The position numbers and the translations under genes are program-made. From Clostridia bacterium (lineage in GTDB: Bacteria; Bacillota; Clostridia; UMGS1883), in assembly GCA_017440585.1 (NCBI GenBank), contig JAFSGW010000073.1, positions 1 through 33,076 on the forward strand: 33,076 nucleotides of DNA. Reading direction: 5' to 3'. The notes under the pieces are model-generated. The model saw nothing but the letters and a program-made list of their open reading frames with translations. It made no database searches and was not told where the DNA came from. Numbering within the stretch: position 1 is the stretch's first letter; every line of letters begins with the position of its first letter. This document shows positions 3,597-26,510 of this stretch, piece by piece.

Positions 3597-4301
3597 TTAC
3601 TTATAGCTTTTTACAAAGTGGCTTATAGCCTTTGTCTCCATACCTCTGTCAATGAGCTTTACAATTTCGTTTGAAAGAATAAGTCCGTCGCACTTAAAGC
3701 TTTCGTCCTTTGTCACAACGGGAATATCCTTCTTTGCCTTTACTGTTGAAATAAGCTTCTCCATGTCCTCAACGGTGTTTTCCGCTAAAGCCGTTGCATA
3801 TAAAAAGCCCTTTGCATCCTTTACGATTTTTTCAATTCTGTCTTCGTCTGTGGGAGCAACTGCCATAATTATATACACGCCGTTTTTGTCTGCCTCACCC
3901 TTGAATTCTTCAACCTCTTCATAAGGCACATCGGGCATAATAATTGCATCAACTCCCGACAGTCTGCAGTTTTCAAAGAAGCGGTCAATACCATAGGAAA
4001 ATACGGGGTTTGCATTTGTTATAATAACAACGGGAACCTCAGTATCCTTGCGAAGTCTCTTCACACAGTCAAAAATTGTGTCGGTGTTAACCTTGTTTTC
4101 AAGAGCCTTAATGTAAAACTCCTGAATTGTAGAATCCTCTGCAATTGGGTCAGAGAAGGGAATGCCTATTTCAATAAAATCCGCACCGCCCTCAATCATG
4201 GAAAGAATATATTCCTCTGTTTTTTCAATATCAATATCACCGGGTGTAATGAAAGCACCTAAAATGCCTTCCTTTTTAAGATTGTCAAGTCTGTTACTCA
4301 T
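3597..4301 (-). CDS. trpA: Tryptophan synthase alpha-subunit homologue, divergent
   Basis: TrpA normally splits indole-3-glycerol phosphate (IGP) into indole and glyceraldehyde-3-phosphate and passes indole to TrpB. The N-terminal half is recognisable: catalytic Glu44 in [12 protein letters not shown], then [23 protein letters not shown] and APT. The later phosphate-binding loops are not conserved. The usual SxxGVTG after GF(I/L)Y reads [11 protein letters not shown], the usual GFGIS reads VTKDESF, and GSAIV reads LSNEIV. In addition, DGP after the SDP(L/I)A motif reads EDS, and the Tyr of the (M/T)Y.NP motif reads Asn. At 234 residues it is also shorter than the usual 250-270. ATG 4301 was chosen over upstream codons because AGGGGGG sits 9 bases upstream; it overlaps the trpB stop by 8 bases. 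IGP lyase activity is doubtful; it may serve mainly as an allosteric partner of TrpB. Confidence 0.88.
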
Positions 4302-5478
4302 AAAGATTAACCCCCCTGTATCTTGCAATTGCCGCAACGTCCTTATCGCCTCTGCCGGAAAGACAGATAATTATAATATCATCCTTGCTCATTGTGGGTG
4401 CAAGCTTAATTGCATGTGCCACAGCATGGCTGCTTTCAATTGCGGGAATAATACCCTCTGTTCTTGAAAGGTATTCAAAAGCGTCAACCGCCTCCGTGTC
4501 TGTCACGGGAACGTATTCTGCTCTCTTTGAATCGTAAAGGTTTGCATGCTCGGGGCCTATACCGGGGTAGTCAAGCCCTGCGGAGATGGAGTAAACCTCA
4601 TCAATCTGACCGTATTCGTTCTGACAGAAGTAGCTCTTCATGCCGTGGAAAATGCCCAGTTTACCCTTGGAAATAGTTGCCGCATGCTCCTTTGTGTCAA
4701 TACCGCGTCCTGCCGCTTCACAGCCTATAAGACGAACAGATTCATCACCTATAAAGTTGTAGAACATACCCATGGCGTTACTGCCGCCACCCACACAGGC
4801 TAAAACAGCAGAGGGAAGTCTGCCTTCTTTCTCAAGTATCTGGCTTCTTGCCTCACGGCTTATAACGCTCTGGAAATCACGTACAATTGTGGGGAAAGGA
4901 TGAGGACCCATAACAGAGCCTAAAACGTAATGTGTGTCGGAAATACGGTTGGTCCACTCTCTCATTGTTTCGTTAACCGCATCCTTTAATACCTGTGTAC
5001 CGCTTTCAACAGCGTGCACCTTGGCACCTAAGAGCTGCATACGGTAAACATTGAGTGCCTGCCTTTCGCAGTCAATCTTACCCATGAAAATTTCACATTC
5101 CATATCCATAAGAGCTGCCGCAGTAGCAGTAGCAACGCCGTGCTGACCTGCACCTGTTTCGGCGATAACTCTCGTCTTGCCCATTTTCTTTGCAAGTAAA
5201 ACCTGACCGAGCACATTATTGAGCTTGTGACTGCCTGTGTGGTTCAGGTCTTCTCTCTTTAAGTAAATCTTTGCACCGCCCAGGTCTTTTGTCATTTTTT
5301 CAGCATAGTATAACAAAGACGGTCTTCCTGCATAATTGTCAAGAAGCTCCTTTAACTCACGGTTGAACTGGGGATCGTCCTTATACTTATTGTACGCCTC
5401 CTCAAGCTCGTTAACCGCCTTCATCAGTATTTCGGGAACATACTGTCCGCCGTGAATACCAAACCTACCTTTTTTCAC
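4294..5478 (-). CDS. trpB: Tryptophan synthase beta subunit
   Basis: TrpB condenses indole with L-serine in a PLP-dependent reaction to give tryptophan. All key motifs are present: [11 protein letters not shown] at the N-terminus, HTGSHKLNN carrying the PLP lysine (Lys85 with this start), ETGAGQHG with the catalytic Glu, GGGSNAMG for the PLP phosphate, and [12 protein letters not shown]. The frame is open upstream to a TTG at 5487, but that codon directly abuts the Shine-Dalgarno AGAAAGGA. GTG at 5478 lies about 10 bases from it and gives a 394-residue protein starting [11 protein letters not shown], so I prefer the GTG. It is the first gene after the T-box leader and overlaps trpA. No trpE, G, D, C or F gene is visible in this window. 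Confidence 0.96.
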
Positions 5479-5513
5479 AAATACCAAATCCTTTCTTTAC
5501 GGGGGTTAAAACT

Positions 5514-5550
5514 AAAAAAGCCCCCGATTGTTAAATACAATCAAGGACGA
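5514..5550 (-). terminator. T-box regulated terminator
   Basis: On the minus strand CCTTGATTGT pairs with ACAATCGGGG across a short loop and is followed by CTTTTTT. The stem lies 14-20 bases after the T-box core and about 35 bases upstream of trpB. This is the attenuator that uncharged tRNA-Trp would prevent from forming. Confidence 0.88.
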
Positions 5551-5778
5551 GATAAACCCGCGGTACCACCTTGTTTTACTCCATAGAGTACACCTTATGA
5601 GCACTAACATGCCCCTGCGATTAACGCTCGCACACGTCGCAGAATACTCAGGTTTCCCCTTTAATCCGCGCCCTCATCGGTCCATTTGACAAGCTGTTAC
5701 TGCAAGGCTCTCAGCTACCCTCGCTCTCTGTGAGCACATATCCTGCCGTTATCTCCGAATCAACGGTTTATTTTCTTA
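5514..5778 (-). promoter_or_regulatory. Tryptophan T-box riboswitch leader
   Basis: This 265-base leader carries the hallmark T-box core AGGTGGTACCGCGG (about 5572-5558, minus strand), which pairs with the CCA end of uncharged tRNA. A terminator follows it. In the upstream Stem I region the specifier context reads CAAATGGACC, placing a UGG tryptophan codon at 5684-5682 after AA and before a purine, as in known T-boxes. Stem I also contains an AGAGAGCGAGGG segment resembling the AG-rich bulge. The expected behaviour is antitermination of trpBA when tRNA-Trp is uncharged. The leader begins about 7 bases after a consensus promoter. Specifier assignment is by motif reading, not by a full fold. 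Confidence 0.93.
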
Positions 5779-25200: not shown

Positions 25201-25641
25201 ATGACAAACGTAAACATAAAAAAGCTTAACCCCAACGCAACAATCCCCACCTACGGAAGTGAATATGCAGCAGGCTGTGACCTTTATGCCTGCCTTGACG
25301 AAGCCGTTACAATCAATCCTCACGAAACTGTTTTAATAAAAACAGGTCTTGCACTTGAGGTTCCCGTTGGCTATGCAGGCTTAATATATGCCAGAAGCGG
25401 TCTTGCTTCAAAAAGAAACCTTGCTCCTGCCAACAAGGTAGGCGTGGTGGATGCTGACTATCGTGGTGAGGTTATGGTTGCACTTCATAACCACGGCACT
25501 ACTCCCCAGGTAGTTGAACATGGCGAAAGGATTGCCCAGATGGTTATTGCACCCTTCCTTCAGGTAAGCTTCATTGAAACCGAAACCCTTTCCGACACAG
25601 TCCGTGGCGAAGGTGGCTTCGGCAGTACCGGGACGAAATAA
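25201..25641 (+). CDS. dut: dUTP diphosphatase
   Basis: Dut hydrolyses dUTP to dUMP, keeping uracil out of DNA and feeding dTMP synthesis. The 146-residue trimeric-type enzyme shows all five motifs: AAGCDLYA, RSGLASK, GVVDADYRGEV, ERIAQMVI and the flexible C-terminal GEGGFGSTG. AGAAAGGA lies 8 bases before the ATG and only 15 bases separate it from nrdG. Its presence in the nrdDG operon couples dNTP production to dUTP clearance. Confidence 0.97.
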   Translation: MTNVNIKKLNPNATIPTYGSEYAAGCDLYACLDEAVTINPHETVLIKTGLALEVPVGYAGLIYARSGLASKRNLAPANKVGVVDADYRGEVMVALHNHGTTPQVVEHGERIAQMVIAPFLQVSFIETETLSDTVRGEGGFGSTGTK

Positions 25642-25678: not shown

Positions 25679-25685
25679 AACGTAA

Positions 25686-25721
25686 ATAACCCTGTTGCAT
25701 TTTTGCAACAGGGTTATTTTT
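25686..25721 (+). terminator. Terminator of nrdDG-dut
   Basis: A perfect 14-bp stem (25686-25699 with 25704-25717) has a TTTT loop and a T-rich tail. On the minus strand the same hairpin contains the end of the broken Cys-rich gene. Confidence 0.9.
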
Positions 25722-26198
25722 GATTTACTCGTGGGCATTGAGCATCCTTGCAAGTATCACAATTCGGATACCCTCCAAATTTAACACAACACATCAGATA
25801 ATCACATTCATCACATAGGGTGAGGGGAGTTGAACCCCATATGCCCTTTCCTTGTTAAAATTGCGTCTTTTCGGTTTGTCGCTTTTGAAAGGCGCCAGCC
25901 TATCGGCAAGCTCCGCACCAAAAATCCATCAATTTTTCCTAAGGAAAGGGTCGCAGAGTTTTAATCGAGCAAATTTTTTGTCAGAGGATACTAAAAGCGG
26001 AGACTATACTGACGTATAGTCGAGCATTTTTGTGCCCTATGGCGGAAAATTTGCCGATTAAAACCATATTGGGTTCGACTCCCCTCACCTTAGACATTCA
26101 ATTGCATTTCCGTTTGCATCAGCATGCAAACCATTGTACAAACAGTCTTTTCCGCTATTCCCCGGCATAAAGGCTATCCTCGCACCATTATTTATCAT
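25714..26198 (-). pseudogene. Small Cys-rich protein gene interrupted by an inverted-repeat element
   Basis: From ATG 26198 (preceded by AAGGGGTGGGG) the minus strand reads MINNGARIAFMPGNSGKDC and on to NAIEC, then enters the element and stops at TGA 26087-26085 after 37 residues. On the other side of the element the minus strand continues CDECDYLMCC, then YPNCDTCKDAQCP and VNQK, and stops at TAA 25716-25714. Joining the flanks at the 3-bp ACA repeat (25813-25815 and 26094-26096) restores one 67-residue frame. It would have eight cysteines (C19, C35, C38, C43, C44, C53, C56, C61), suggesting metal binding. A near-perfect promoter precedes it, so the gene was probably functional before insertion. 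I do not recognise the family. Alternatively the 37-residue product is still made, or the insert is spliced from RNA. Confidence 0.72.
25816..26093. mobile_element. 278-bp inverted-repeat element with T-arm-like ends (MITE-like, no ORF)
   Basis: Arms at 25816-25843 and 26065-26092 are inverted repeats matching at 25 of 28 positions. Each contains a tRNA T-arm-like core (GGGTTCGACTCCC at the right, its complement with TTCAA at the left). Between them lie two hairpin domains of 107 bases each. Domain A is 25844-25950, closed by a perfect 10-bp stem CCCTTTCCTT/AAGGAAAGGG. Domain B is 25958-26064, closed by a 19-bp stem with one bulged A, and contains the 8-bp hairpin GACTATAC-TGAC-GTATAGTC. No coding frame exists. 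The insert is flanked by ACA on both sides and interrupts the Cys-rich gene. A non-autonomous transposable element is most likely; a structured RNA is possible. Confidence 0.75.
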
Positions 26199-26224: not shown

Positions 26225-26253
26225 ATTATATAATGTATTAGTCTATATGTAAA
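26225..26253 (-). promoter_or_regulatory. Promoter of the interrupted Cys-rich gene
   Basis: TTTACA (26253-26248), a 17-base spacer and perfect TATAAT (26230-26225) lie about 27 bases upstream of ATG 26198 on the minus strand. Confidence 0.82.
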
Positions 26254-26306: not shown

Positions 26307-26510
26307 ATGATTAAATTAAGAGCATTGGAATTATTGGAGAAAAACGGCAAAACAAAATATTGGTTGTACAAGCAGTTGGGCATGAGTTATCAGAATTTCA
26401 GCAAAATGGTTAACAACGAAACAAAATCCATCCGTTATGAAAACATTGAAACCCTTTGTCTTTTATTCAATTGTACTCCCAATGAGCTTTTTGAAATAAC
26501 CGAGGATTAA
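26307..26510 (+). CDS. Small XRE-family DNA-binding protein
   Basis: The 67-residue protein is essentially one Cro/CI-type helix-turn-helix domain. KTKYWLYKQLGMSYQNFSKM forms the HTH (about residues 14-33), followed by the conserved helix ENIETLCLLFNCTPNELFEI. ATG 26307 is preferred to ATG 26292 because GGAGAG (26294-26299) is correctly spaced for it. It is transcribed away from the Cys-rich gene, so it may regulate that gene or itself. Close relatives are usually phage-type or stand-alone chromosomal regulators; the target is unknown. Confidence 0.88.
   Translation: MIKLRALELLEKNGKTKYWLYKQLGMSYQNFSKMVNNETKSIRYENIETLCLLFNCTPNELFEITED

Follow-up and report, generated by a model that had tools for sequence, protein, structure and literature searches.

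An inverted-repeat element splits a small Cys-rich gene

We asked what the inverted-repeat element is that splits a small Cys-rich gene in a contig of a Clostridia bacterium (JAFSGW010000073.1, positions 1–33,076; this whole analysed stretch is called the window), and how it came to lie there. The gene is read on the minus strand, with its 5' fragment (MINNGARIAFMPGNSGKDCLYNGLHADANGNAIEC...) at 26093–26198 and its 3' fragment (...CDECDYLMCCVKFGGYPNCDTCKDAQCPRVNQK) at 25714–25815, closed by a stop codon at 25714–25716. The explanation we favour, with a probability of roughly 0.8, is that the gene was broken by a non-autonomous, MITE-like DNA element, one copy of which inserted into a TA within it and duplicated that TA. 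The element would have been copied or moved into this TA from elsewhere in the genome, and the Cys-rich gene would now be dead.

The element runs from TA to TA over 277 bp (25816–26092, with no strand assigned to it, its core, TAs or internal parts), as delimited by its repeat symmetry, by other copies that share this TA...TA boundary and by an empty site. The original prediction had described a 278-bp element: the insertion is real, and its edges are those given here, the G at 26093 being host DNA. The two copies of the target TA (25816–25817 and 26091–26092) enclose a 273-bp core (25818–26090). The predicted 28-bp terminal inverted repeats (TIRs), matching at 25 of 28 positions, were found at 25816–25843 (plus strand) and 26065–26092 (minus strand); in the left TIR the outer part is species-specific, and the inner box GGGAGTYGAACCC is widely shared among copies. 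Between the TIRs lie a first internal hairpin arm with a conserved GGCGYCAGCC tip (25844–25950; inverted repeat I6, covariation helices 6–11), the linker TCGCAGA (25951–25957), which is unpaired in the folds and within the most conserved stretch, and a second internal hairpin arm (25958–26064; inverted repeats I1 and I5, covariation helices 3–5). As predicted, the element has no ORF of at least 80 aa.

The inner TIR sequence GGGTTCGACTCCC (window 25820–25836 and 26072–26088) resembles a tRNA/tmRNA T-arm, and many copies, including ones whose outer ends differ, contain a GTTCRANT-like core. The tmRNA T-arm, at 12.5 bits, was the best of the sub-threshold scraps obtained from Rfam, where no match for the element was found among 4227 families. 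A tRNA-like RNA was rejected, as ARAGORN found no tRNA in four element-bearing loci despite the T-arm-like inner TIR.

The element is dispersed across Clostridia

The search for further copies that had been proposed as a check revealed a multicopy family. The source genome holds at least four complete copies and five at contig ends, 84–97% identical, plus one solo end. By BLASTN, the element was present in 21 of 60 relatives, with a dozen or more copies in some genomes, and a pattern scan suggested ~30 copies in one of them (G053). A covariance model built from 19 diverse copies extended this range to 51 of 245 genomes sampled across the class, covering 36 of 158 genera, with matches that were mostly end to end and that fell below 1e-20 in 12 families. 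The model matched the window copy, itself among the model's inputs, over positions 1–277 with 265 bits. Named carrier records include ruminant-gut Clostridia MAGs, uncultured Ruminococcus, Oscillospiraceae and the isolate Acetivibrio sp. MSJd-27. No description of the element was found in the literature searched, and it is a candidate entry for Rfam or a repeat library. The family also breaks metagenome assemblies, with many contigs ending in the element.

A phage or plasmid origin was rejected, since at blastn sensitivity the element was absent from 50,697 phage and 72,556 plasmid records. A single pattern match in a viral contig, and matches in Croceitalea, Flavobacterium, Chitinophagaceae, Pyrinomonadaceae and Chloroflexi records, were attributed to chance, as the covariance model gave them at most 10 bits.

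Most copies are intergenic, often in the gap that separates a stop codon from the following ribosome site. Solo half-ends such as TAAGCATTAGGGAG were observed just upstream of start codons, at the position of the ribosome site (L117, L121, L123 and L132 in G053; L010 in G000), as if remnants of the element had become ribosome-binding sites. Very short palindromes consisting only of ends, 21–53 bp long and sometimes in tandem, also occurred (L276, L277 and L274 in G112; L126 and L134 in G031; L131 in G053; L281 in G025); they may have moved as such or be remnants of internal hairpin deletion. A sister genome (G002; L293, G002:C18, ~47126–47297) has a different insert of ~170 bp at a near-identical position between stop codon and ribosome site, and this insert carries the hairpin GGAGGCTTAGT...ACTAAGCCTCC.

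A Y-shaped fold covaries between families

The length of the element is 276–278 bp in most copies, and the whole element folds into a Y made of a terminal stem and two long arms. In the fold of the window copy both ends are paired, and the energy lies ~12 (plus strand) and ~11 (minus strand) sd below shuffles. As this fold is accompanied by further copies in the genome at 84–97% identity, the inverted-repeat element is far beyond chance. Among 20 diverse copies that are 46–80% identical, the minus-strand fold lay below shuffles by 5.6 to 19 sd, and that of the interior by itself by 3 to 13 sd.

In the consensus of 29 aligned copies, 93.8% of cells were paired, and 60 of the 82 pairs had changed on both sides. 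The covariation score was 0.473, compared with 0.163 for shuffled controls, which ignore relatedness, and 0.07–0.115 for slid partners, which preserve it. Conservation over 10 bp peaked at element positions 131–140 (0.88 majority), a stretch that includes the unpaired linker between the arms (GGTCGNAGAG). Left and right outer TIRs matched at 87% within a copy and at 42% between species, so that the ends are particular to each species and the interior is shared.

The folded interior thus looks to be under selection, at odds with the passive filler implied by an ordinary MITE, the type of element originally suggested, as it is conserved and covaries across families. The same covariation could have a mutational origin, with template switching in imperfect palindromes rewriting one arm from the other and no selection on structure. 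Long quasi-palindromes are prone to such template-switch correction, and the pairing is symmetric on both strands. We nevertheless consider this origin unlikely: the arms stay imperfect and do not converge to perfect palindromes, the best conserved stretch contains an unpaired linker, and total length stays within 1–2 bp between families.

Within genomes, single changes broke pairs in 21 of 40 cases (G053) and 18 of 31 cases (G031), against a random expectation of ~74%. About half of these changes break pairs, the outcome expected if copies are not maintained one by one. Individual copies are thus under mild constraint at most, whereas lineages retain the fold from species to species. The fold would then matter for spreading rather than at each site.

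Strand evidence is divided between the arms

Counts of G.U versus A.C favoured the minus strand for the ends and the first arm and the plus strand for the second arm, and by folding energy neither strand folds better overall. A strand of action could not be read from the G.U counts, as the arms contradict each other and the energies are neutral. Of 48 copies lying between co-directional genes, the minus strand is co-transcribed in 32 and the plus strand in 16 (p = 0.03), a weak bias given that the copies are related and the p value is uncorrected for relatedness.

This bias bears on whether the element is a regulatory RNA or mRNA-processing element maintained by the host, like ERIC in operons, which spread incidentally and whose structure is selected at each site. 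The strong covariation, the conserved unpaired linker, the frequent placement between stop codon and ribosome site and the co-directional orientation all fit such a role. It appears quite improbable, however, since single copies within genomes lose pairs, the G.U versus A.C test assigns the two arms to opposite strands, the energies show no strand preference, and the only location compared across species was not conserved.

The insertion duplicated a TA

For the gene itself, removing the element and one TA restores a coding frame: joined at one TA, the frame (MINNGARIAFMPGNSGKDCLYNGLHADANGNAIECLCDECDYLMCCVKFGGYPNCDTCKDAQCPRVNQK) has 69 codons and 9 cysteines. The restored minus-strand frame of the original prediction is real, as intact homologues attest, with its size corrected from 67 codons and eight cysteines. 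The predicted stop soon after the insertion junction is present as well, the interrupted frame reading CTA AGG TGA.

Three agreeing tests established that the duplicated target is TA. First, the single-TA join reads ECLCDECDY and aligns without gaps to homologues reading ECCCDECDY; the proposed search recovered intact homologues, from this genome as well as from relatives, that have ECCCDECDY or ECQCDECDF here and show no gap at the junction with the TA join. Second, for the copy at G000:C58:15282-15558 (TA-273-TA), the orthologous locus in the sister genome G001 is empty, and the alignment runs straight through at a single TA. Third, a copy on JAAWTG010000090.1 (L155) interrupts a metallophosphoesterase gene precisely at YYV|TGNHEYW; once joined at the TA, this protein has a normal domain that scores as Pfam Metallophos. 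Pooled flanks of 71 copies showed a target preference of CT-TA-AG around the duplicated TA. Full copies also stand back to back with a solo end, with the TA in common (L125, L246, L253, L265; G025:C23:149-174), which suggests preferred insertion beside the element's own ends; the target CTTAAG resembles the end TAAG.

Exact restoration of the frame would also follow if the insert were intron-like, a mobile RNA that removes itself and leaves a working Cys-rich gene, and the insert is highly structured. We regard this as very improbable. No group I or II core was detected with Rfam at the gathering or a relaxed threshold, in agreement with the original prediction, in which none was recognised. 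The interrupted gene follows the element's minus strand in the window and its plus strand in L155, and a splicer tied to one orientation could not work in both; this applies equally to an IStron. Furthermore, most copies are intergenic, and folding energy favours neither strand. The originally proposed 278-bp element with a 3-bp ACA target duplication is almost certainly wrong, for although ACA is literally present on either side of 25816–26093, this reading calls for one additional G that breaks the symmetry, removes two conserved residues of the protein, one of them a Cys, and fails at other copies and at the empty site.

The element resembles TA-ended MITEs with a conserved interior

The best placement of the element is with the TA-ended bacterial MITEs, such as ERIC, RUP and Correia (PMC2229807, PMC10969869), because it has TIRs and a target duplication, is dispersed and has no coding capacity. 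In keeping with bacterial MITEs, it is shorter than 500 bp (277), non-coding and flanked by TIRs (25/28), with dispersed copies, a duplicated TA and both filled and empty sites.

RUP of Streptococcus pneumoniae is 107 bp long, targets TA and is proposed to be mobilised by IS630-Spn1 (PMC2229807). The element is RUP-like in being non-coding and TIR-bounded, with TA termini, a TA-containing target and proposed mobilisation in trans. It differs from RUP in its 277-bp length, its occurrence in many families, the absence of an IS630 transposase from six carriers and internal arms that covary between families. Of the two marks of an IS630-derived MITE of the RUP type, the TA target duplication was found and an IS630 transposase in the genome was not. 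ERIC/IRU and Correia/NEMIS are ~100–200 bp long and limited to enterobacteria or Neisseria (PMC2229807). The element shares with them small size, TA ends, target duplication, predicted long stem-loop transcripts and a mostly intergenic location; unlike them, it is a two-armed Y whose linker is conserved and whose ends are species-specific around a shared interior. The CIR repeats of Caulobacter and Brucella have no terminal inverted repeats and contain GANTC (PMC2229807). Like CIR, the element has two arms, a linker and a phylogenetically conserved structure, but its termini pair and its TA is duplicated. REPIN/RAYT systems form populations of palindromic repeats that are species-specific in sequence and apparently persist for long in host lineages. 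The element's populations are likewise palindromic and species-specific and also appear long-lived in their host lineages; REPINs are not known to have a TA duplication, in contrast to the element.

TA-ended MITEs usually have a narrow host range, and their interior is regarded as leftover filler. The element differs from them in its breadth, its fixed 277-bp length, its two covarying arms, the conserved linker that joins them, and its ends, which diversify on a conserved interior. An architecture of fixed length that compensatory change preserves in at least 12 Clostridia families, while the outer ends diversify, is unusual for 'junk' elements.

What moves the element

The original prediction of a non-autonomous element moved in trans holds as far as the element is multicopy, non-coding, without a transposase of its own and inserted into an existing gene; mobilisation in trans is what we infer, by an enzyme that would be encoded elsewhere and recognise the element's ends. 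By analogy with the proposal for RUP, the TA duplication suggests that this may be an IS630/Tc1-like enzyme.

The matching transposase that the prediction had led us to expect was not found with models for IS630, IS30 and DDE_Tnp_1. An IS630-type DDE_3 transposase was detected in 0 of 6 carriers at E<=0.001, with matches obtained in control genomes. IS30 was absent from 11 of 12 carriers, as was DDE_Tnp_1 (IS4/IS5), and the two exceptional transposases had no matching ends nearby, the best match having 4 mismatches. No autonomous relative with the same ends was seen in the carriers examined with these three models; their genomes are draft assemblies that could hide a helper. TIR scans of G053, G031, G112 and G025 likewise gave no transposase-bearing pair of IS size: all that they returned were complete copies, pieces at contig ends, solo ends and short palindromes. 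The missing autonomous relative lowers the case for derivation from a known IS, not for an element that works like a MITE.

Since ordinary MITEs do not keep their interior, transposition that involves just the ends does not account for the conserved interior. A lineage may need the folded shape to keep moving, be it formed by single-stranded or cruciform DNA or by a transcript; such a need would explain why pairing persists from one species to another even as individual copies lose pairs. A bolder version, which we hold to be doubtful, is that this is a class-wide mobile family in which movement requires the complete folded 277-base Y, rather than the ends alone, and is carried out by a recombinase recognising DNA or RNA in folded form, with an end specificity that varies by species. 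The conserved architecture raises the testable questions of whether a non-coding element needs its fold to move and which mover acts where no TA-type transposase is visible.

The split gene and its neighbours

The element disrupts genes, of which the Cys-rich gene in the window is an example. The family of this gene (motif ECCCDECDY) had no match in Pfam or NCBIfam, and one genome (G043) carries six paralogues. The original prediction gave the gene its own promoter. One promoter-like site, TTTACA-17-TATAAT at 26253–26225 on the minus strand, does lie upstream; shuffles give 3.4 such sites in the region, and it is thus no evidence. Adjoining the split gene is a divergent small Cro/C1-type HTH gene (26307–26510, plus strand; Pfam HTH_26, 2.9e-13). 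Several Cys-rich homologues likewise have a Cro/C1-type HTH-like gene nearby (L099, L100, L106, L107), which suggests a conserved cassette of a small regulator and a Cys-rich protein. A link between the Cys-rich family and the element was not supported, as a full copy lies near only 1 of 14 homologue loci.

Two further features of the window were observed. A perfect 16-bp terminator hairpin (25684–25719) lies downstream of a dUTPase-like gene (25201–25641), between it and the split gene. Elsewhere, a T-box leader (5540–5772, minus strand) lies upstream of trpB/trpA-like genes (3597–5487).
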